Positions 3,717 through 55,759 of a stretch of DNA of 64,000 bases are shown here, piece after piece; within the stretch, counting starts at the first letter, position 1; each line of letters begins with the position of its first letter. A program made the position numbers and the translations under genes. Under the pieces are notes generated by a model. That model was not told the DNA's origin, made no database searches, and saw nothing but the letters and a program-made list of their open reading frames with translations. Source of the stretch: Oceanobacter sp. (lineage in GTDB: Bacteria > Pseudomonadota > Gammaproteobacteria > Pseudomonadales > Oceanobacteraceae); the NCBI GenBank assembly GCA_002733645.1, contig NVWL01000048.1, forward strand, positions 1-64,000, given 5' to 3'.

Positions 3717-4628
3717 TTATTCTTCAGTATAGAAGACCTTATCCAAAACTACGGCCTGACCAGACATTTCTGCGTTAAAAGATTCATCGTGACTATTAAC
3801 AACCGCTAAGCCGTGTTTTCCACAGCGGCTGGCAAGCTCGCCAATGGTTTTGCCGTTGTTCTGAATCTCGCTCATCACCGCAGGCAAATCAGTCTCGGTG
3901 GATATTCTGTATAAATTCTTTTTACTTTTCCCGAGGTACTGCAAACGTGCAATGATTTCTTGGCCTGTGTAGCAGCCTTTAGAAAAACTAATACCATGCT
4001 GATGTTGCCAGCCTATGTATTGGGGCACCCACGCTTCGGTGGCTTCTGCTTGTACCCACATCCAGCCATGTGTAATGTCTGCTAATAGCCAGGCAGACTC
4101 CGCGCATAAATTTCCATTTAGGCGTTTCTCCGAACTGTTTTTTGATCCCCAGAATTCTTGGCGACCATCCGCCCATGTTAATTGATAGCCATCTTCCAGA
4201 ACGTGGAAGGATGCGTCCGCGGCTGCTGTGTCCTCGGGATTAATGATGCCAACCAAATACAGATCAGTCGCAAGGCTCAGTGTTGATTTGAAGAATACGA
4301 TGTATTTTTTCAAATGCGTCATCAGAACATCGGCTTGCACGCGTGGTAAGCGTAATAAAAAACCGTCAGGCGTTTTGACCAAAATAAAGTTGGCCACCAT
4401 GCGCCCTTTCGCTGTACAGCATGCTCCGGCTAACCAGTTATTGCTGGTTAAGGCGCTGGCATCACAGGTAAGTTGCCCTTGTAAAAAGCGTTCGCTATCG
4501 GGGCCTGTTACTTTAATTAAACTAAACTGGCTAAGTAGAGTGGCAGCAGGGCGGTTCTCGCTTGGGTGGGTAGGGACAAATCCTTGACTGGAGACTGAGC
4601 CGAATTCATCAAACAATTCATCAAACAT
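3717..4628 (-). CDS. ygfZ: tRNA-modifying/iron-sulfur folate-binding protein YgfZ
   Basis: This GcvT-related protein carries the YgfZ signature KGCYTGQE, which includes the functional cysteine, near the middle of the C-terminal half. FLQGQLTCDA and KGRM follow the usual N-terminal spacing. YgfZ binds tetrahydrofolate and supports assembly or repair of certain Fe-S enzymes, including MiaB-type tRNA thiolation. The start at 4628 is chosen because AAGGAAAG lies just upstream and the N-terminus MFDELF then matches the family length (303 residues); an upstream in-frame ATG at 4694 would add 22 atypical residues. It is divergent from sdhE, the conserved arrangement in gammaproteobacteria. Confidence 0.9.
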   Translation of the reverse strand: MFDELFDEFGSVSSQGFVPTHPSENRPAATLLSQFSLIKVTGPDSERFLQGQLTCDASALTSNNWLAGACCTAKGRMVANFILVKTPDGFLLRLPRVQADVLMTHLKKYIVFFKSTLSLATDLYLVGIINPEDTAAADASFHVLEDGYQLTWADGRQEFWGSKNSSEKRLNGNLCAESAWLLADITHGWMWVQAEATEAWVPQYIGWQHQHGISFSKGCYTGQEIIARLQYLGKSKKNLYRISTETDLPAVMSEIQNNGKTIGELASRCGKHGLAVVNSHDESFNAEMSGQAVVLDKVFYTEE

Positions 4629-4858
4629 AGACTTTCCTTGGTAGAACATGTGTGCTGCTAATGGGATGCACTCTTCATCAATGCGTGTCATCAATGCGTT
4701 GAGCGATTCTAAGGAATTCTTGCCCAGCTATCACGGGGTAATATGTAAGGGTATTTGAAAGTGAGTGATTTTCCCTTAACGTTACGATCAACTGGCACCA
4801 TGATTTTTCGTTATACTGGCATCTTGTTAAGTGTAAAACCCATAATGGAGAGCAGTAA

Positions 4859-5116
4859 GTGAGTGAAGATATAGAAGCGAAGCGCGCTATTTGGCACAGC
4901 CGTCGAGGCATGCTTGAACTGGATGTTTTACTCGTACCGTTTGCAGAAAAAGCCTACCCACTGTTGGATGAGGCTGATAAAAAGCGTTATCAAGATTTGT
5001 TAGAGTGTGAAGACCCTGATTTATTCACCTGGTTTTTAGAGCACACACCACCGGGTACTAAAGACATGGAACGTATCGTCGAACTGGTGCTGGAACATGC
5101 ACGAAAACCCCGCTGA
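4859..5116 (+). CDS. sdhE: Succinate dehydrogenase FAD assembly factor SdhE
   Basis: An 85-residue SdhE/YgfY/CptB homologue. The signature RRGMLELD (residues 15-22) contains the RGxxE motif that contacts the flavoprotein during covalent FAD attachment to SdhA and FrdA. It starts with GTG, preceded by GGAGAG. It overlaps the next gene, ygfX, by 20 bases, so the two are co-transcribed and probably coupled. A TTATACT hexamer about 45 bases upstream is a candidate -10 element. Family and locus (ygfZ divergent, nadB beyond) agree. Confidence 0.93.
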   Translation: MSEDIEAKRAIWHSRRGMLELDVLLVPFAEKAYPLLDEADKKRYQDLLECEDPDLFTWFLEHTPPGTKDMERIVELVLEHARKPR

Positions 5117-5489
5117 GTGGCACATCCTTCCCTCACGACGACAACGGCAGCTTGATGTTGCCGCTTTGCTCGTCGTGTCTTTTATTTTATTTTTAACACT
5201 CAGCCATGTGTTCGTATGGTTCGTCTTACTTCCCTTGTTTGGTATTTTTATACTTTGGCGATGGCCCCAGCCCGATGTCGTGATTGGCGTTGGTCAGCAA
5301 GGCTGGTGGCTAAGGCGTGATACCACCAAACAGATTACTCAATGGCGTGTTGGGAGTATTCGTCGCCGAGAGTTCGTGTGTTTGGTGTGGGGGTTTTGGC
5401 CGTGGCAGCTTATTCGTATTCGACCCGATAGCCTGCCGGATATGGAATCGTTCCGGCGACTAAAATTTGCCTTATATGGCAGTGTTTAA
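5097..5489 (+). CDS. ygfX: YgfX/CptA-family inner-membrane protein
   Basis: A 130-residue protein with two closely spaced membrane segments (about residues 20-38 and 40-55, the second ending in ILWRWP), followed by a soluble C-terminal part with a WRVGSIRRREF stretch. This fits the YgfX family encoded downstream of sdhE. In E. coli the family has been described both as a toxin partner of SdhE and as a factor affecting cell morphology; the role remains uncertain. It converges on nadB, with a hairpin between the two genes. Confidence 0.8.
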   Translation: MHENPAEWHILPSRRQRQLDVAALLVVSFILFLTLSHVFVWFVLLPLFGIFILWRWPQPDVVIGVGQQGWWLRRDTTKQITQWRVGSIRRREFVCLVWGFWPWQLIRIRPDSLPDMESFRRLKFALYGSV

Positions 5490-5521
5490 GGTGTGTTCCA
5501 GAAGCTACAAGCATTCCTAAT

Positions 5522-49288: not shown

Positions 49289-49347
49289 ACACGGGTGAGT
49301 TCAACACCACGCCCTTATTTTTGAAACATTTTCTGAGGTCACCATCC

Positions 49348-50853
49348 ATGGTACCCGTCATCGCCCTGATTGGCCGTCCGAACGTCGGTAAATCAACATT
49401 GTTTAATCGTCTGACCAAAAGCCGTGATGCGCTTGTGGCAGAAATTGCTGGCCTGACCCGCGACCGTAAATACGGCGAAGGTAAGGTGGGCGATCATCCC
49501 TTCATTGTGATTGATACCGGTGGTATCAGTGGTCAGGAAGAAGGCATTGACGAAGCCATGGCAGGGCAAAGTTTCCAAGCGATACAAGAAGCCGACATCG
49601 TCTTCTTTATGGTAGATGTTAACGCCGGCGTGACCGCAGGCGACCGCATGATTGCTGAATACCTACGTCGCAATAACAAATCTGCGTACCTGATTGCCAA
49701 CAAAATTGATGGTAAAAACCCGGACGTCGTTCTGGGTGAGTTCTACGAACTCGCCATGGGCGAACCTCTAGGTATCGCCGCTGCTCACAACCGTGGCGTA
49801 TCAGCACTGATTGAGCACGTCATGGACCCATTGTTCGACAAAGAAATAGTCGAAGAAGAGGAAAATGGCTATTACTACGGCGAAGAAGAATCTGAAAGCG
49901 CTCGTGACCACCAAGCGCTTAACATCAAAGGCATCAAAATTGCCGTGGTGGGGCGTCCTAATGTCGGCAAATCAACACTCGTAAACCGCTTCTTAGGCGA
50001 AGACCGTGTGGTGGTATATGACGAAGCAGGCACCACACGTGACAGCATATATATCCCATACGAACGTCACGGTCAGGACTACACGTTAATTGATACCGCT
50101 GGTATTCGTCGTCGTAAAAACATCTCCGAAGCGGCAGAAAAATTCTCCATTATTAAAACCCTGCAAGCGATCCAAGACTGTAACGTCTGTATTCTTGTAC
50201 TTGATGCCCGCACCGGCATCGTAGAGCAAGATCTACACATGTTGAGCTTCGTGCTTAACTCGGGTCGCGCATTAGTATTAGCAATCAACAAATGGGACGG
50301 AATGGACGCTGATGATAAACAGCGTGTTAAAGACGAACTCGACCGTCGCTTTAACTTCCTCACCTTTGCAGATACCCACTTTATATCTGCGCTACATGGT
50401 ACCGGTGTAGGCCACCTATATGAGTCTGTTGATCATGCCTATGCCTCGGCGATGGCCAAATGGCAGACCAACATGCTGACACGCATCCTTGAAGACGCCG
50501 TTGCTGGGCACCAGCCACCGGTGGTTCGTGGTCGCCGACCTAAACTTCGTTACGCCCACCAAGGCGGTTCCAACCCGCCGCGTATTATCGTACACGGAAC
50601 CTTAGTTGAATCACTCAATGAAGACTACAAACGTTACCTAGTAAACACCTTCCGACGTGTACTCGACATTAAAGGCACACCGGTGCGGTTTGAGTTTAAA
50701 CAAGGTGATAACCCTTACTCCGACAAAAAGAAAGACGTGAAACACTCCACACGTCGTCGTGCTGAAGCGGTTGTACGTACCGATAACAAACGTAAGATCA
50801 AACTCGATAAAGCACGTAAGCAGCTTAAAAAGACGTACCAGAAGCCGAAGTAA
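49348..50853 (+). CDS. der: GTPase Der (EngA)
   Basis: A 501-residue double GTPase for 50S subunit assembly. The first P-loop [14 protein letters not shown] and second [14 protein letters not shown], each with its DT(G/A)G switch, are followed by a KH-like C-terminal domain and a basic tail (RRRAEAV...). The ATG at 49348 has GAGGT nine bases upstream; an in-frame TTG at 49321 would add nine residues. Confidence 0.96.
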
Positions 50854-50875
50854 TAAGTGTTTTTAAGTGACGACG

Positions 50876-50913
50876 AAAAGCCGAGTGCTGGATAACTAGC
50901 CCTCGGCTTTTTT
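50876..50913 (+). terminator. Rho-independent terminator of der
   Basis: AAAAGCCGAG (50876-50885) pairs with CTCGGCTTTT (50902-50911), followed by more T's, with a 16-base loop. It ends the conserved block before the integrated element. Confidence 0.88.
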
Positions 50914-51042
50914 GTGGGTGAACGATCAGTTTGATGTTGAGAGCGAGGAACATCGGGTAGTGCCTTCTATACCTTCCAACATGAGAGTGTCGGAAGATAT
51001 AAGAGGTATCGCTTGATGTTGTTCAGGGGGATAAATAATTAA
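50914..51042. other. Short host intergenic sequence before the element
   Basis: About 130 bases between the der terminator and the left repeat of the integrated element. CTTCC and GGAAG arms suggest a weak hairpin around 50970-51000. I see no gene or known motif here. Together with the element's own left margin it makes a 375-base gap before the next gene. Confidence 0.5.
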
Positions 51043-51058
51043 ATGGTCTCCCCACAGG
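51043..51058. repeat. attL: duplicated tRNA 3' end
   Basis: ATGGTCTCCCCACAGG is identical to the 3'-terminal part of the tRNA-Arg gene at 55683-55698. It marks the distal junction of the element. Confidence 0.9.
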
Positions 51059-51119
51059 AGGCCGAACTACTGCCTTTTTGCCTTATTTTTGCCACAAATG
51101 GAACGTATTTTAGTATTTG

Positions 51120-51143
51120 ATACCCCCAGAAATACCCCCAGAA
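51120..51143. repeat. Tandem arm-type sites, left end
   Basis: ATACCCCCAGAA occurs twice in exact tandem (51120-51131 and 51132-51143). A similar pair lies near the right end (55550-55571). Such pairs beside tyrosine-recombinase elements are likely integrase arm-binding sites. Confidence 0.65.
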
Positions 51144-51228
51144 TTATTAGCTGAGGCTAAGGTTATCGTTATTCTAATGGGCCGCTTGTGCTATAAAGTC
51201 GTTAGGAAAATCCAACAAGGAAGAATTT

Positions 51229-51885
51229 ATGTTCAAGTTTATCTTAACTGCTGTTATCGCTCTCTGTACTCAGGTAGCTATGGCAGATGGCACTTTTAAC
51301 TATAGTGGTTTGATTGCAAATGGTGGTTTCGTCAAAAGGGGGCTTGAAGATACAGACCAAGAGCTAGTTGCTTCTAACATCGGTCTAACTCTGAATAATG
51401 AGCTTAGTAATCAGTTTTTCCTTTCGTTATCACTAGGCCACCAAGTTATTGATGATGATATTTATTATGATGGTGTTTATGGCCAATTTGCGGGTACATC
51501 TACCTCTGTATCTTTGGGGCTTGGCCGTTATTTTTCTGTAAATCCGTTGCTTGATGTTTATTTCAGTGGCGGCATTATCCTTTCGCGTTATAACACGGAT
51601 GCTCTTTTTACCGATGCTTTTGGTAATAGTTTGTATATTGAGGAAAGTGAGAGCGATTCTGCAATAGGTGCGACCTTAGCAGCGCGGATGCTTCTGAATT
51701 CAAATGGCAAGGTTGAGTTAATGCCAAGGCTGCAATTAACGTCTAACGAAGGTGAGAGTGATACTTCCGCCGGTATGGCTATAGCGTTGAACACCTCAAA
51801 AAAATTAAGTTTTGGTTTCTCGTTTGATACATCGTTAAAGGAAGATGTCACAGCCTTTGGACTCTTTGGTCGTCTTTATTTTTAA
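51229..51885 (+). CDS. Predicted outer-membrane beta-barrel protein (element cargo)
   Basis: A 218-residue protein with a clear signal peptide (MFKFILTAVIALCTQ, likely cut after AMA). The mature part has many amphipathic alternating strands (FNYSGLIANGG, SLSLGHQV, SVSLGLGRYFS, KLSFGFSFDTS) and ends in RLYF, with a terminal aromatic as recognised by the BAM complex. AAGGAAGAA precedes the ATG. It is the only rightward gene of the element and is richer in A+T than the host genes by eye. I cannot name the family. A barrel cargo could alter surface receptors or permeability; this is inference. Confidence 0.75.
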   Translation: MFKFILTAVIALCTQVAMADGTFNYSGLIANGGFVKRGLEDTDQELVASNIGLTLNNELSNQFFLSLSLGHQVIDDDIYYDGVYGQFAGTSTSVSLGLGRYFSVNPLLDVYFSGGIILSRYNTDALFTDAFGNSLYIEESESDSAIGATLAARMLLNSNGKVELMPRLQLTSNEGESDTSAGMAIALNTSKKLSFGFSFDTSLKEDVTAFGLFGRLYF

Positions 51886-51921
51886 AGGTAAAGCGTACCG
51901 GCTTGGTAATATATAAAGGTA

Positions 51922-52032
51922 TACACATAGCGACTAACTGACTCATGAAATTCAGGGGTACAAGTACACATAGCGACTAACTCTTGAGGTGATTTGGTGG
52001 CGTGGGGTGGTCATTGATACACATAGCGACTA
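51922..52032. repeat. Three iteron-like direct repeats
   Basis: TACACATAGCGACTAACT occurs exactly at 51922-51939 and 51965-51982, and its first 15 bases again at 52018-52032. Start-to-start spacing is 43 and 53 bases. They lie between the converging ends of the barrel gene and the leftward operon, so they are not in an obvious promoter. A replication-initiator or other cis-acting site is plausible. Confidence 0.75.
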
Positions 52033-52044
52033 GATGAATACAGA

Positions 52045-52073
52045 TACCGACCACGAAATATTTAAGGTCGGTA
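52045..52073. terminator. Hairpin at the end of the leftward operon
   Basis: TACCGACC (52045-52052) and GGTCGGTA (52066-52073) are exact complements with a 13-base loop. The right arm lies in the end of the small leftward gene, across its stop at 52062-52064. No strong T-run follows, so terminator function is tentative. Confidence 0.5.
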
Positions 52074-52460
52074 CTGTTTCCATTGATTGGTTGCTTGCTT
52101 CGTTGCTGCAATATCAGTCTTACCTTTGCATTCGTCTATTGGTTGCCAAGTGATGGCATAAAGCGAGCATCGGTTTTTTCCACCTTGCCTAGAAAGTAAA
52201 ATTAGCCCCGTGTTTAGTAGTTCAATTTTAGCATTCTGGAGTGTGCTGGGGGAGTGCCACCCCCTTGATTTCAGTATGCTGTAAGGTGCGCATAAATCAC
52301 CGTTATTGTGCCCCTTGTATTGGGCTGCAATATCCACCAGCAACTTTACCGCCCATCCTCCAAGTGACAGGTAGGCTTCACTATCTAGAACAGTGTGAGG
52401 TATGCCAAGGTAAGAACTTGTCCCTTTACGTCCCTTGAGCTTAGCTCTCTTATCTGACAT
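52062..52460 (-). CDS. Small winged-helix/replication-like protein of the element
   Basis: A 132-residue protein. The stretch SLGGWAVKLLVDIAAQYKGHNNGDL followed by YSILKSRGWHSPSTLQNAKIELLNTGLILLSRQGG looks like a winged helix with an N-terminal helix turn. Similar small proteins sit beside AlpA in gammaproteobacterial elements, where they are annotated only as helix-turn-helix or plasmid-replication-like. The basic N-terminus (KRAKLKGRKG) fits nucleic-acid binding. It overlaps the upstream gene by one base (ATG within its TGATG junction), so it is translationally coupled. Function is inferred from context. Confidence 0.65.
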   Translation of the reverse strand: MSDKRAKLKGRKGTSSYLGIPHTVLDSEAYLSLGGWAVKLLVDIAAQYKGHNNGDLCAPYSILKSRGWHSPSTLQNAKIELLNTGLILLSRQGGKNRCSLYAITWQPIDECKGKTDIAATKQATNQWKQYRP

Positions 52461-52894
52461 CAGGCTGTGCCACCTCTGGTATCAGTGAACTTAAACTCTG
52501 TTTGCATAGCTTCCTCATAGCGTTCCAGCGCAGAGGGCAGACGCAGTGACTCTCTGAGGGCCAGATTTTTAGAATCACAGGCAAGCTCTCGCTTACGAAT
52601 GGTTCGGGCTTCTGCGTCGTCCAGTGGTTTTCCTGTTAGGTGTAACGGGCTGAGCTGATACAGCCCTCGCCCTTTATCCTTATTGAGGTTTTTGATTAAC
52701 CAGAAGCCACCACTTTTACTGCGTAAAGATTGAATAGCTGAGCGGGGGTCAACTTCTAGGATTTGGATTAGTTTTGCCGTTGGTACTGGGTAGCCACCAG
52801 CAAGTGCCAGAAGTACCCTTCCTGCTTGGGTACGTTCGCCGGGTATATGGTGCGCCATGACGTGGCTAAATACTCTACGAAGTGTCAGTTCCAT
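52460..52894 (-). CDS. Element protein, unknown (AlpA operon)
   Basis: A 144-residue protein from ATG at 52894 (MELTLRRVFSHVM). The central segment TPGERTQAGRVLLALAGGYPVP-like helix, then KLIQILEVDPRSAIQSLRSKSGGFWLIKNLN, resembles a winged-helix with a beta hairpin (GRGLYQLSPLHL). The open frame continues upstream to a TTG at 53062, overlapping alpA, but the ATG at 52894 overlaps the TGA of the 45-codon ORF (ATGGAACTGA), which supports it. I do not recognise a named family. Confidence 0.6.
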   Translation of the reverse strand: MELTLRRVFSHVMAHHIPGERTQAGRVLLALAGGYPVPTAKLIQILEVDPRSAIQSLRSKSGGFWLIKNLNKDKGRGLYQLSPLHLTGKPLDDAEARTIRKRELACDSKNLALRESLRLPSALERYEEAMQTEFKFTDTRGGTA

Positions 52895-53022
52895 AAGGCA
52901 CCCCCGCTCATAATAACGCCGCAATAGGGAAGGCTGGTGGCCAAAGGTACAAAGGTTTGTGCGTATACAAGCGTCAGAACGCGGTTTATACGCTGGTGTC
53001 TGAACTGGTAAGGGGCGTTCAT
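52885..53022 (-). CDS. 45-codon coupling ORF between alpA and the next gene
   Basis: A small frame that starts at ATG overlapping the alpA stop (ATGA) with AGGGGGTGAAAT just upstream, and ends over the start of the next gene. It encodes 45 residues beginning MNAPYQFRHQRINRV and ending GGALWN. Both junctions are of the translational-coupling type, which favours a real gene over chance. It recalls the small Ash/Icd-type proteins of P4-like elements only in place and size. No function is assigned. Confidence 0.5.
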   Translation of the reverse strand: MNAPYQFRHQRINRVLTLVYAQTFVPLATSLPYCGVIMSGGALWN

Positions 53023-53240
53023 ATTTCACCCCCTGAGCGGCTCTCATTGATTCGTTGCTCAATCCACGAATAGACCTCTTCAGCGATCCATGCGGAAGCT
53101 CTGGTGGATAGTTTAATCTGTCGGGGGAATCGACCTTCCGCGATCATGGCGTGAACCTGAGAGCGGCATAAGCCGGTGGCCTGTTTAACTTCAGGGAAGC
53201 GCATCAGGCGGGGGAGTCGGTTTTGGTTGTTGTCATTCAT
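53019..53240 (-). CDS. alpA: AlpA-family transcriptional regulator
   Basis: A 73-residue MerR-like helix-turn-helix protein: LMRFPEVKQATGLCRSQVHAMI, then GRFPRQIKLSTRASAWIAEEVYSWIEQR, which is the AlpA signature. AlpA activates integrase or excision genes in P4-like elements. The ATG has AGGAGG six bases upstream. Confidence 0.9.
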   Translation of the reverse strand: MNDNNQNRLPRLMRFPEVKQATGLCRSQVHAMIAEGRFPRQIKLSTRASAWIAEEVYSWIEQRINESRSGGEI

Positions 53241-53334
53241 CTAGTGCCTCCTGTAGGCGTTGTTGGTGACTACAGGGGAAACAATAATGCTCAGCGCCGG
53301 GTTTAATAATTATCTACGCTAGCGTCTGGGGGGA

Positions 53335-54267
53335 TTAAATATTAAGGGTATCTTTTACTATTTTGGTCGCATTTTCGACAGAATTTAGCTTGCGTCGACC
53401 CGCTTTGGTTAAATAATCAGGCAAGGTGTACTGCGTTTTTATGTACTGTTTAAACCATTGCTCGGTGCGAAGATTGTCGCTCGTAATATCACTATTAATC
53501 TGCCCGCACCTATCAACCATATATTCCATTACTAACTTGGCTAGTGCGGTGAAGTTTAGTTCTTGATTAACATCTGAGTCCAATACATCAATTAGGGCTC
53601 TGCCTATTAGATCGGCTTCTTTCTCTGAAATTTTTCGACTGTTAATGCCGCCGAGTACTTGAGGGTAATTGGCTTTTTCTACGGCCAGTTCAAGCTCTGT
53701 TCTTGTTCTTCCATCATGCCTTTTGAGAAGTTGCTTATCGCTATTTATTAGTTTGATATGTGAGTATTCCAAACTTTCACTAGCAGTTAAAAGGTTTGTT
53801 TGCTGTTCAATTATCACGCGATCGGTGGGTATCTCTCCGCGTTTCATTGGTTTGATTATATTCGTGAAAAATAGGCTTAGTAAGTATAAAGTGAGTGTCT
53901 TATACAGAACCATATGAATGGTACTTGCAATCGTATGATCCGGTGCTTCTTCATCGGCCAGCCATAGAAATAAAACTGGGGAGTAGGCTTGAAGCTCATT
54001 TTTCGGTTTACCAGTTCGTAGTAACTTTCTTCGTCCTGTGTGAAGTGCCTTATCTAGCGCTGCCAAGGCGTTGCGCGTTTCCTGCCGGCCGAAATTATTT
54101 TTGTCACTTGTTACCGTTAACATACGATTGTAATTACCCATAACTTGCACGGGGATGATGTGATTTTGTATGTCAAAAATAGGCCCCTGACTTACCATTT
54201 CATGGATGCTTGTCACTATGTCGTCTAATGAATAAAGATAAGTTTCAAACCATTCTTGATTTTCCAT
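53335..54267 (-). CDS. Unrecognised 310-residue cargo protein
   Basis: I cannot place this protein. The N-terminal ~70 residues are hydrophilic (ENQEWFETYLYSLDD). A basic stretch (GRRKLLRTGKPKNE) follows, then a hydrophobic segment at about 118-140 (IHMVLYKTLTLYLLSLFF). The C-terminal half is helical and charged (RKISEKEADLIGRALIDVLDSD and KAGRRKLNSVENATKIVKDTL). No catalytic motif is seen. The ATG lies eight bases past the integrase stop with GGAGTAACTT inside the integrase end, so it is co-translated with int. The position between int and alpA is where similar elements often carry defence or accessory genes. Confidence 0.7.
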   Translation of the reverse strand: MENQEWFETYLYSLDDIVTSIHEMVSQGPIFDIQNHIIPVQVMGNYNRMLTVTSDKNNFGRQETRNALAALDKALHTGRRKLLRTGKPKNELQAYSPVLFLWLADEEAPDHTIASTIHMVLYKTLTLYLLSLFFTNIIKPMKRGEIPTDRVIIEQQTNLLTASESLEYSHIKLINSDKQLLKRHDGRTRTELELAVEKANYPQVLGGINSRKISEKEADLIGRALIDVLDSDVNQELNFTALAKLVMEYMVDRCGQINSDITSDNLRTEQWFKQYIKTQYTLPDYLTKAGRRKLNSVENATKIVKDTLNI

Positions 54268-54274
54268 GGTGAAG

Positions 54275-55456
54275 TTACTCCTTTTTCAGAACGGTATCAG
54301 CCCACCACTGCAACATTTCCCGGCGTTCTTCCAAATAATCAGCGCGGTTGTAAGCCTTGCGCACCTGATTGCGTTCTTCGTGCGCTAACTGCTTTTCGAT
54401 CACTTCCGGTCGAAAGCCATTTTCATTCAGGACGGTAGAGGCCGTTGCTCTCAGTCCGTGGGCGGTTGTGTATTCTTTAAAGCCTATCCGCTTAATAAGC
54501 ACCAGAAAAGCGTTTTCTGATAACGGTTTGTCGATAGTGTTCGGGCTTCTCACAATAAAGCGCGTATGGCTGGTTAAGGCTTGAAGGCTTTTCAAAACGT
54601 CTATGGCTTGATCGCTTAGTGGTATTAGGTGGTCGGCTCGCATTTTCATGCGCTGGGCTGGTATTAACCATTGACGCTTTTCAAAGTCGATTTCATCCCA
54701 AGTGGCAAAACGTACTTCACCAGTTCGCGTCATTGTGAGTAGTAAAAGTTTCAGTCCTAGCTTTACGACAGGGTGGCCTTCATCGTTGTCTATGGCTTGA
54801 ATAAAGTCGCCCATCATGTGAAAGGGGAGGCTGCGTTGGTGGGTGGCTGGTGGCACGGATTTTAGCGCAGGGGTAATCCCTGTTACTGGATTGTTCTCAA
54901 TGTGGCCTTCTGCGATGGCATAAGCAAAGATGCCCGCTAGATAGTTTTTAACTTTGCGCGTGGTTTCGCCAATACCTTCATTTTCCATTAAGCGCAGTAC
55001 TTTCAGGGTGTCGGCACTGGTAATGTCTTTTAAAGGTTTATTACCCAGTTCTTTCACCAATCGCTTGTCGGTCATTTGCCAGACTTTCAGGGCGTAGCGT
55101 GGTGACCATCTGGGGGTATTGAGTTCGTGCCAGCGTTTTGCTGCGTCTTTAAACAGTAGGGCGCTCTGATCGTTGTCAGAATGCTTTAAGGCTTGTTTAT
55201 GGGCGCTTGGGTCTACGCCTTCACTAAGTAGCGCTTTTGCGTCTGCTCTGGCGTCTCTTGCTTTCTTGAGTGACGTTTGGGGGTATTTCCCAATGGTTAG
55301 GATTTTTTCTTTGCCATGAAAGCGGTATTTCATTCGCCACGACTTCAACCCAGTAGGCGCAACCCACAAATATAAACCTTGAGCATCAGGTAATTTGTAC
55401 GCTTTTTCTCTTGGTTTGGCTTCTCTTAGCCTTATATCCGTCAGTGCCATGAGCAT
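54275..55456 (-). CDS. int: P4-type tyrosine integrase
   Basis: A 393-residue site-specific recombinase. The N-terminal DUF4102 arm-binding domain begins MALTDIRLREAKPREKAYKLPDAQGLYLWV. A core-binding domain follows. The catalytic residues are visible: Arg in TRTGEVRFATW, His-x-x-Arg in AHGLRATAST, and the Tyr probably in KAYNRADY. ATG at 55456 or 55450 could start it; GGAAAG lies upstream of both. It sits 227 bases from the attR/tRNA end, as expected. Confidence 0.95.
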   Translation of the reverse strand: MLMALTDIRLREAKPREKAYKLPDAQGLYLWVAPTGLKSWRMKYRFHGKEKILTIGKYPQTSLKKARDARADAKALLSEGVDPSAHKQALKHSDNDQSALLFKDAAKRWHELNTPRWSPRYALKVWQMTDKRLVKELGNKPLKDITSADTLKVLRLMENEGIGETTRKVKNYLAGIFAYAIAEGHIENNPVTGITPALKSVPPATHQRSLPFHMMGDFIQAIDNDEGHPVVKLGLKLLLLTMTRTGEVRFATWDEIDFEKRQWLIPAQRMKMRADHLIPLSDQAIDVLKSLQALTSHTRFIVRSPNTIDKPLSENAFLVLIKRIGFKEYTTAHGLRATASTVLNENGFRPEVIEKQLAHEERNQVRKAYNRADYLEERREMLQWWADTVLKKE

Positions 55457-55549
55457 TCTTTCCTTACTAACTGAGTGTCTGCCCGTCTCTTCTCCGTTAT
55501 TTTCCCGTTATTTTGTTTCATTGGGGGGTATGGAGGTTGAACGAACAGG

Positions 55550-55571
55550 TATACCCCTAAAAATACCCCCT
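55550..55571. repeat. Tandem arm-type sites, right end
   Basis: ATACCCCTAAAA (55550-55561) followed by ATACCCCCTA (55562-55571) mirrors the exact pair at 51120-51143. GGGGGGTATGG at 55522-55532 is a further, opposite-facing match. These are candidate integrase arm sites. Confidence 0.6.
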
Positions 55572-55682
55572 ATGGTTATAGGTTGTCTATGGTCAATTCT
55601 GGATGTAGGGTAATGAGGCGGCTAGTATTTATAGGGGTTTTAGGTATTTTGCGGATATTCTAGGAAGGCTTTGGAATACTTT

Positions 55683-55698
55683 ATGGTCTCCCCACAGG
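55683..55698. repeat. attR: tRNA 3' end repeat
   Basis: ATGGTCTCCCCACAGG matches attL at 51043-51058 exactly. It is part of the tRNA-Arg gene's 3' end, so integration kept the gene intact. Confidence 0.9.
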
Positions 55699-55759
55699 GA
55701 CTCGAACCCCGATCGATCGCTTAGGAGGCGACTGCTCTATCCTGTTGAGCTATAGAGAG
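55684..55759 (-). tRNA. tRNA-Arg (anticodon CCU)
   Basis: A 76-base cloverleaf on the minus strand. The acceptor pairs C1-G72 through A7-T66 with two wobbles, discriminator A73 and encoded CCA. The anticodon stem-loop is GTCGC-CTCCTAA-GCGAT, giving CCU, which reads AGG. The T-arm has TTCGAGT. It is the integration site of the element and lies 41 bases from ycgR. Confidence 0.92.

Follow-up and report, generated by a model that had tools for sequence, protein, structure and literature searches.

How can an integrated element of 4.64 kb, in which four family libraries (Pfam, PHROGs, NCBIfam and PADLOC) recognise no helicase loader, primase or packaging gene, be replicated and moved? The question is raised by positions 51043-55698 of the 64,000-nucleotide stretch of DNA that we call the window (Oceanobacter sp., contig NVWL01000048.1 of assembly GCA_002733645.1, positions 1 to 64,000). 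An earlier note on this DNA had taken the element for a minimal satellite that must borrow replication and transfer functions. The satellite part of that claim remains the best reading, with the order int-alpA-ORF2 recurring elsewhere, whereas replication is probably not simply borrowed: the element encodes a predicted small initiator, ORF2, and a structured putative origin. We consider it probable that the element is a helper-dependent, tRNA-integrating compact satellite with the layout of phage-inducible chromosomal minimalist islands (PICMIs) and of Gram-negative phage-inducible chromosomal islands (PICIs), in which a tiny initiator and a phased origin replace the primase. To judge from its sequence, the element probably starts its own replication, and it presumably borrows helicase loading and transfer.

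The putative origin lies at the 3' end of ORF2 (52062-52460, minus strand; 132 aa), which is predicted to encode a small winged-helix replication initiator of the lambda-O/RepA-N-like type. The iterons claimed by the earlier note are indeed there: the repeat TACACATAGCGACTA starts at 51922, 51965 and 52018, and a degenerate fourth copy starts at 52039. Read on the minus strand, these are I4 (51922-51936, TAGTCGCTATGTGTA on the ORF2 strand), I3 (51965-51979, 43 bp from I4), I2 (52018-52032, 53 bp from I3) and I1 (52039-52053, TGGTCGGTATCTGTA, 21 bp from I2). An AT-rich stretch at 51897-51921, TTTATATATTACC, adjoins I4, the last iteron, and is a putative DNA unwinding element. The spacings of 21, 53 and 43 bp are identical in the window and in four other loci with an ORF2 relative (L015, L016, L040 and L068).

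Repeats were sought around the ORF2 stop codon in 134 loci, from which three duplicate places had been excluded beforehand; 121 loci remained after near-identical ORF2 copies were dropped, and 116 of these had enough DNA. Segments at the putative origin contained a repeat matching at 13 or more of 15 positions in 96 of 116 cases, against 388 of 3,795 control segments from the same loci, and the best spacing was 43-45 bp in 51 of the 116 and in 9 of the 3,795 controls. The repeat sequences diverge widely between loci. All spacings together give a comb-like spectrum, in which peaks stand near 22, 33, 44, 53, 65, 75, 87, 97, 110 and 118 bp and little between them. When one spacing was taken per locus (99 loci), the resultant was 0.77 at a period of 10.76 bp, where the controls gave 0.10; over periods of 9-13 bp, the control regions reached a maximum of 0.28, at 11.6 bp. 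Without the 42-46 bp peak, the resultant was 0.66 (57 loci), and the largest of 2,000 random draws was 0.36. The test on all spacings used 343 values, of which those from the same locus are not independent, and its controls rose up to 0.25 at 11.6 bp. The spacing spectrum and the all-spacings and one-per-locus phase tests are the unselected evidence for phasing; the four-site listing and the repeats used in the co-variation, palindrome and compact-element tests were chosen with the preferred spacings. That the iterons are chance repeats was considered and rejected on the control segments and the phase test.

Other features accompany this geometry. In 70 loci aligned on the last repeat pair, the GC content 20-39 bp past the start of the last site was on average 19 points under the locus mean, and GC beyond the last repeat was below the locus mean in 69 of the 70; the largest dip is the one beyond I4 (-0.19), with lesser dips elsewhere. 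Palindromicity of at least 5/6 was found in 24% of 99 repeats and in 9% of 1,980 random stretches from the same regions. Furthermore, across 73 loci, repeat similarity followed ORF2 similarity (rho 0.31, the same once integrase similarity had been removed) but did not follow that of the integrases (rho -0.02), the largest of 500 permuted partial values being 0.14. Only mismatched candidates for DnaA boxes were seen, none convincing. In plasmids, iterons are as a rule helically phased, and those of lambda are bound by O dimers (PMC5043065). The array 3' of ORF2 is a conserved putative origin, whose geometry is kept while its sequences diverge. The chief interest of the element is this conserved geometry of sequence-divergent sites beside a minimal initiator, more than its small size.

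The ORF2 gene is not confined to the window. Eight of the 44 host-family genomes have it, and a sample of the class gave matches in 23 of 369 genomes, the window's own genome being included in both counts. A scan of genome contigs gave 245 confirmed relatives, of which the best 80 were kept, so that counts lean toward closer relatives; the sources include Marinobacter, Simiduia, Dyella, Rhodanobacter, Lysobacter, Nitrosospira and Gallionella, which we take to be Gamma- and Betaproteobacteria. We also tested the idea that ORF2 relatives are mostly phage genes and discarded it, because only 2 of 50,697 phage records had one at E ≤ 0.01, though 44 were found in viral contigs. In the host family, the order int-alpA-ORF2 is seen again at tRNA-Arg(CCU) in three loci (L016, L021 and L022), two of them from other genera and one from another species of the window's genus, and at tRNA-Phe in one (L023). 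The search for this order at tRNA-Arg(CCU) proposed in the earlier note was therefore rewarded, with a matching second att copy for one of the three loci, L016, at a distance of 12.4 kb. Among 84 distinct loci with an upstream integrase of at least 300 aa, alpA was recognised between int and ORF2 in 53, and in all 134 loci the alpA hits lie upstream on the ORF2 strand in 61 cases, downstream in none and on the opposite strand in one. An open reading frame (ORF) of at least 100 aa starts between -20 and +60 nt from the int stop in 41 of the 84 loci, a count without a chance control, and 12 of these 41 overlap int by 4 nt. In the slot between alpA and ORF2, 4 of the 10 proteins scanned from other loci are HTH_39 winged-helix proteins.

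Small size also recurs. Direct repeats of at least 15 bp, with the pair in or within 60 bp of a tRNA gene, were found in 22 of 88 loci, and 11 of these 22 tRNA-associated elements are smaller than 7.2 kb (4.1-7.0 kb repeat to repeat); the window element is the twelfth. The 11 lie at several different tRNAs and all keep int and ORF2, with alpA recognised in 8 and not in 3. Pfam found no packaging or transfer family in the proteins searched, of which 24 belong to seven of these elements and one to L106; one L088 protein was compared with PHROGs, and proteins of L060 and L085 were not included. The Pfam matches comprise a SocA/Panacea domain, a DprA-type protein, DUF3192, a recombinase fragment, P-domain/PEP-CTERM and HTH_39. 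In the compact element L031, the DprA-type gene (4609-5514; PF02481, E 1.6e-54) lies between int and alpA and is perhaps defence cargo.

The window element is bounded by exact 16-bp repeats 4,640 bp apart. The distal att repeat, ATGGTCTCCCCACAGG (51043-51058, plus strand), is an exact copy of the tRNA 3' end, and the other copy (55683-55698, plus strand) overlaps the 3' end of an intact tRNA-Arg(CCU) gene on the minus strand (55684-55759; 58.8 bits for the Rfam tRNA family, the sole match of the Rfam search). A search of the 3.88-Mb genome that tolerated one mismatch found the 16-mer nowhere else, and its 12-bp core has two copies in the window (0 of 100 shuffles). Both ends are therefore as the earlier note gave them, with exact 16-bp att repeats and an intact tRNA at one side, and its P4-type integrase and AlpA are borne out as well, by matches to Arm-DNA-bind_3, Phage_integrase and phrog_1 and to PF05930 (E 5.7e-17), respectively. 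The tRNA-Arg(CCU) site is used repeatedly in the host family. In three other species of the genus (G031, G027 and G030), a second att copy lies 1.75, 1.65 and 3.2 kb from this tRNA, respectively, and in G034 and G028 none was found within the 20-kb tRNA flank with up to two mismatches allowed; five flanks had the full 20 kb, and those of G032 and G033 only 0.6 and 7 kb. The repeats about 1.7 kb apart in G031 (L166) bracket an Abi_2 gene (PF07751, E 2.3e-53), and those of similar distance in G027 (L170) an Abi_2-like gene judged by eye; these two loci are perhaps satellite scraps that retain a defence gene.

These short intervals also bear on another account, in which the window element is what is left of a larger PICI-like element after loss of the packaging or capsid module, and is decaying and no longer mobile. 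ORF2 relatives occur also in 8-14 kb elements with more modules, I1 is degenerate, and in three other species the att copies at this tRNA are separated by just 1.6-3.2 kb, all of which speaks for a remnant. Against this, the integrase, AlpA, ORF2 and both att sites of the window element read as intact, and the 11 other compact elements at several tRNAs have kept int and ORF2, most of them with a recognised alpA. We consider decay unlikely.

The contents downstream of ORF2 vary between loci, and in some they amount to just one or a few small genes. In the members from viral contigs, capsid, portal, terminase and protease genes follow ORF2. Among clusters of downstream proteins, each named through one member, that of a major head protein is present in 19 of 134 loci, and those of a portal, large and small terminase, protease and connector in 9-15 loci each. 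A cluster recognised by eye as type I restriction-modification, and not phage genes, lies downstream in 12 of the 134. The latter loci fit the possibility that the window element is an integrative mobilizable element, on whose oriT-like sequence a conjugative plasmid would act and whose replication would serve transfer or maintenance, as in SGI1, a mobilizable island whose replication takes place in the presence of helper IncC plasmids (PMC7433901). Yet only 1 of 72,556 plasmid records holds an ORF2 relative, while relatives stand alongside capsid, portal and terminase genes in other elements. Moreover, no primase, helicase, relaxase, transposase or capsid family matched any of the six proteins of the window element in the four libraries at E ≤ 1, oriT not having been searched for; the absence of transposase, primase and conjugation genes reported in the earlier note is thus confirmed, and mobilisation by a plasmid seems unlikely. 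The few weak library matches, such as PADLOC hits of E 0.007 for the integrase and 0.039 for AlpA, look like chance or shared folds.

What ORF2 does is read from its relatives and its predicted fold. An alignment of 11 members has 20 invariant positions, including an NNG motif. Five PHROG families matched by most of these members at E ≤ 0.1 are replication-initiation, O-like or DnaD-like helicase-loader families, and the commonest is matched by 7 of the 11; the window's own ORF2 at this threshold matches only a PHROG of unknown function. In a 16-kb Pseudomonas phage record, an ORF2 relative is annotated as 'replication protein O'. The structure model has a mean pLDDT of 78, and its best fold match in the PDB is a Rep-DNA complex (E 0.029), with DnaD third. 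We call ORF2 a small winged-helix initiator because of such weak profile and fold matches together with its context. That ORF2 and its repeats form a transcriptional or maintenance switch and no replication origin is very improbable: winged-helix folds are common in regulators, and CodY, MarR-family and Fur chains are also among the fold matches, but the PHROG families and the phage annotation point to replication, and an array of phased sites where the gene ends, with AT-rich DNA beyond it, is reminiscent of known iteron origins.

Several relatives of ORF2 deserve mention in their own right. The 231-aa relative of L021 (9598-10293) appears by eye to contain the domain twice in tandem, and the repeat search near its stop codon recognised no array after the gene. 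One genome of Simiduia aestuariiviva has two contigs with a relative (L061 and L063), 51% and 45% identical to that of the window. Two further relatives, L117 and L118, are in viral contigs with terminase and portal genes recognised by eye; an integrase was not recognised in the available DNA, and the initiator may also reside in ordinary phage DNA.

If the element is a helper-dependent satellite with its own origin, it could work as follows. Int and AlpA would excise it as a circle. ORF2, probably as dimers, would load on the four iterons on one face of the helix, distort the DNA as lambda O does in the O-some and open the AT-rich stretch. Since ORF2 comprises hardly anything besides a DNA-binding domain, loading of the helicase would fall to the host or to the helper's loader. 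We infer that the element is mobilised by a phage, and copies would reach new cells in helper-phage particles. The genes for a beta-barrel protein and ORF5 would be cargo or of benefit to the host; alternatively, ORF5 might aid excision, like the PICMI gene in the same slot. Beyond the window, there is about an even chance that the related loci make up a lineage of minimal satellites that integrate at tRNA genes, is widespread in Gamma- and Betaproteobacteria and has apparently not been described before. Its exchangeable core would consist of integrase, AlpA, an O-like initiator that is almost entirely DNA-binding domain, and a four-iteron origin of conserved geometry, with spacings in multiples of the helical turn and diverging iteron sequences; a little cargo, defence-type genes or a capsid module would be added to this core, and helicase loading would come from host or helper. 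As far as sequences tell, the putative origin module is common to compact islands and capsid-carrying satellites, so that one replication core would tie together compact islands, apparent restriction islands and capsid-carrying satellites. These results suggest that a satellite may need no more than a means of excision, an initiator of 132 aa and some 130 bp of phased sites. With them it can be asked directly whether so bare a DNA-binding protein suffices to initiate replication, and from where it takes its helicase loader. ORF2 with comb-spaced repeats also offers a searchable mark for compact satellites that primase-based models, such as the published one of PICMIs, would miss.

A number of observations weigh against this interpretation. 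The window's own ORF2 matches an O-like PHROG at only E 0.3; the profile search of PDB structures gave weak matches, led by replication initiators (RepA N-terminal domains) with a best E of 0.022; and the fold search returned nothing at E ≤ 0.001 in the PDB or BFVD. No 13/15 repeat was present in 20 of the 116 segments at the putative origin, and I1 is degenerate in the window itself. Co-variation with ORF2 falls to rho 0.18 when only repeats that lie entirely past the stop codon are counted (92 loci; at most 0.09 in 500 permutations) and to rho 0.11 for pairs below 50% ORF2 identity, the latter value without a permutation figure. No alpA was recognised in 31 of the 84 loci, and L021 and L022 have no second att copy in the available DNA. 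No true empty site for this insertion was seen among the eight other genomes of the genus, as judged by synteny of der, the left neighbour of the element, with the tRNA. It is also possible that compact elements are reduced descendants of larger ones. Finally, a helper, excision, replication and packaging have not been seen.

Comparison with described systems places the element close to two of them. PICMIs are islands of Vibrionaceae, of which PICMI115 has 6,110 bp; in the published model prim is mandatory, insertion is next to fis and a virulent helper phage packages the island as a concatemer, and complete PICMIs are described from Vibrio genomes alone (PMC10803314). The window element shares with them its small size, end repeats of comparable length (17 bp there, 16 bp here), the absence of recognised capsid or packaging genes, and int and alpA close together. 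The slots are also the same, namely int, an int-adjacent gene, alpA, a small gene, a replication gene and cargo, and the int-contiguous gene of most, though not all, PICMI subfamilies corresponds to ORF5, which starts 7 nt past the int stop. In contrast, the primase slot here holds the predicted 132-aa initiator and phased iterons, with no primase match, and the site is tRNA-Arg(CCU) instead of fis. Gram-negative PICIs, which a helper phage induces and packages, have pri/rep genes and an origin 3' of the replication gene, where two sets of iterons flank an AT-rich region (PMC6092414). Like EcCICFT073 in that paper, the window element has a backbone in one direction (int to ORF2 all on the minus strand, with the barrel gene on the opposite strand), alpA, and iterons directly 3' of the replication gene, the array and AT-rich stretch of the putative origin following ORF2 immediately. 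Unlike it, the window element has single phased iterons, with the AT-rich stretch outside, and no match to pri or pri-rep. By analogy, the element would work like a PICMI or a PICI, yet we do not class it with either.

Likeness to other systems is more limited. Capsid-forming PICIs have their own capsid, portal and terminase genes. By this definition, the int/ORF2 module found with such genes in viral contigs resembles them, and the capsid-carrying ORF2 relatives look like capsid-forming PICIs, whereas the window element has no capsid, portal or terminase match. P4 has primase and helicase genes, and P4-like satellites have primase-helicase genes and capsid-size or transactivation genes; the window element has a P4-type integrase but no match to any of these in the four libraries. 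In phage lambda, O recruits the helicase through P, and the origin is inside the O gene. ORF2 has little beyond its DNA-binding domain, and its array straddles or follows the gene end. The likeness to lambda lies in four iterons and an AT-rich tract (PMC5043065, PMC7466680), which in lambda are within the O gene (PMC7466680). Capsid-forming PICIs are named as such in PMC11389934. AH14b, a satellite of Pseudomonas, also begins with an integrase, a variable gene and then alpA, but has primase and helicase genes, none of which were found here (PMC4936722). In the open-licence literature, which was partly covered, we found no description of the present arrangement of initiator and origin.

Away from the tRNA, the order on the minus strand is int, ORF5, alpA, ORF3, ORF2 and the repeats, followed by the barrel gene on the plus strand. 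The integrase is a P4-type tyrosine integrase of 393 aa (54275-55456, minus strand), and the AlpA-family regulator or excisionase (53019-53240, minus strand) also matches phrog_2790; informative Pfam matches among the six proteins are limited to these two and, below the curated cut-off, the barrel protein. ORF5 (53335-54267, minus strand; 310 aa), in the slot of the PICMI iolg/icg genes, is an orphan with no informative family match in the four libraries and no relative in 43 other genomes of the family, its own copy being the only one in 44. ORF3 (52460-52894, minus strand; 144 aa), between alpA and ORF2, likewise has no informative match of its own in these libraries, and it has four relatives in family genomes. 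The cargo gene at 51229-51885 (plus strand; 218 aa) encodes a predicted outer-membrane beta-barrel protein (PF13505, E 1.7e-4, under the curated cut-off) with distant relatives of 17-30% identity in 7 other genomes of the 44. Family libraries and family-genome searches gave no functional lead for ORF5 or the barrel protein.

Directly left of the element, in window 49321-51042, lies der, which was not found beside the tRNA in the eight other genomes of the genus: der and tRNA-Arg(CCU) are on separate contigs in seven of them and 1.7 Mb apart in the eighth, although in two fragmented genomes they may be neighbours across contig ends. The position of der here suggests that the region was rearranged, one breakpoint being close to the left att. 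The window's genome also holds a second, distant integrase of the same kind (G000:C58:698-792, L002), with 38% identity over 212 aa.

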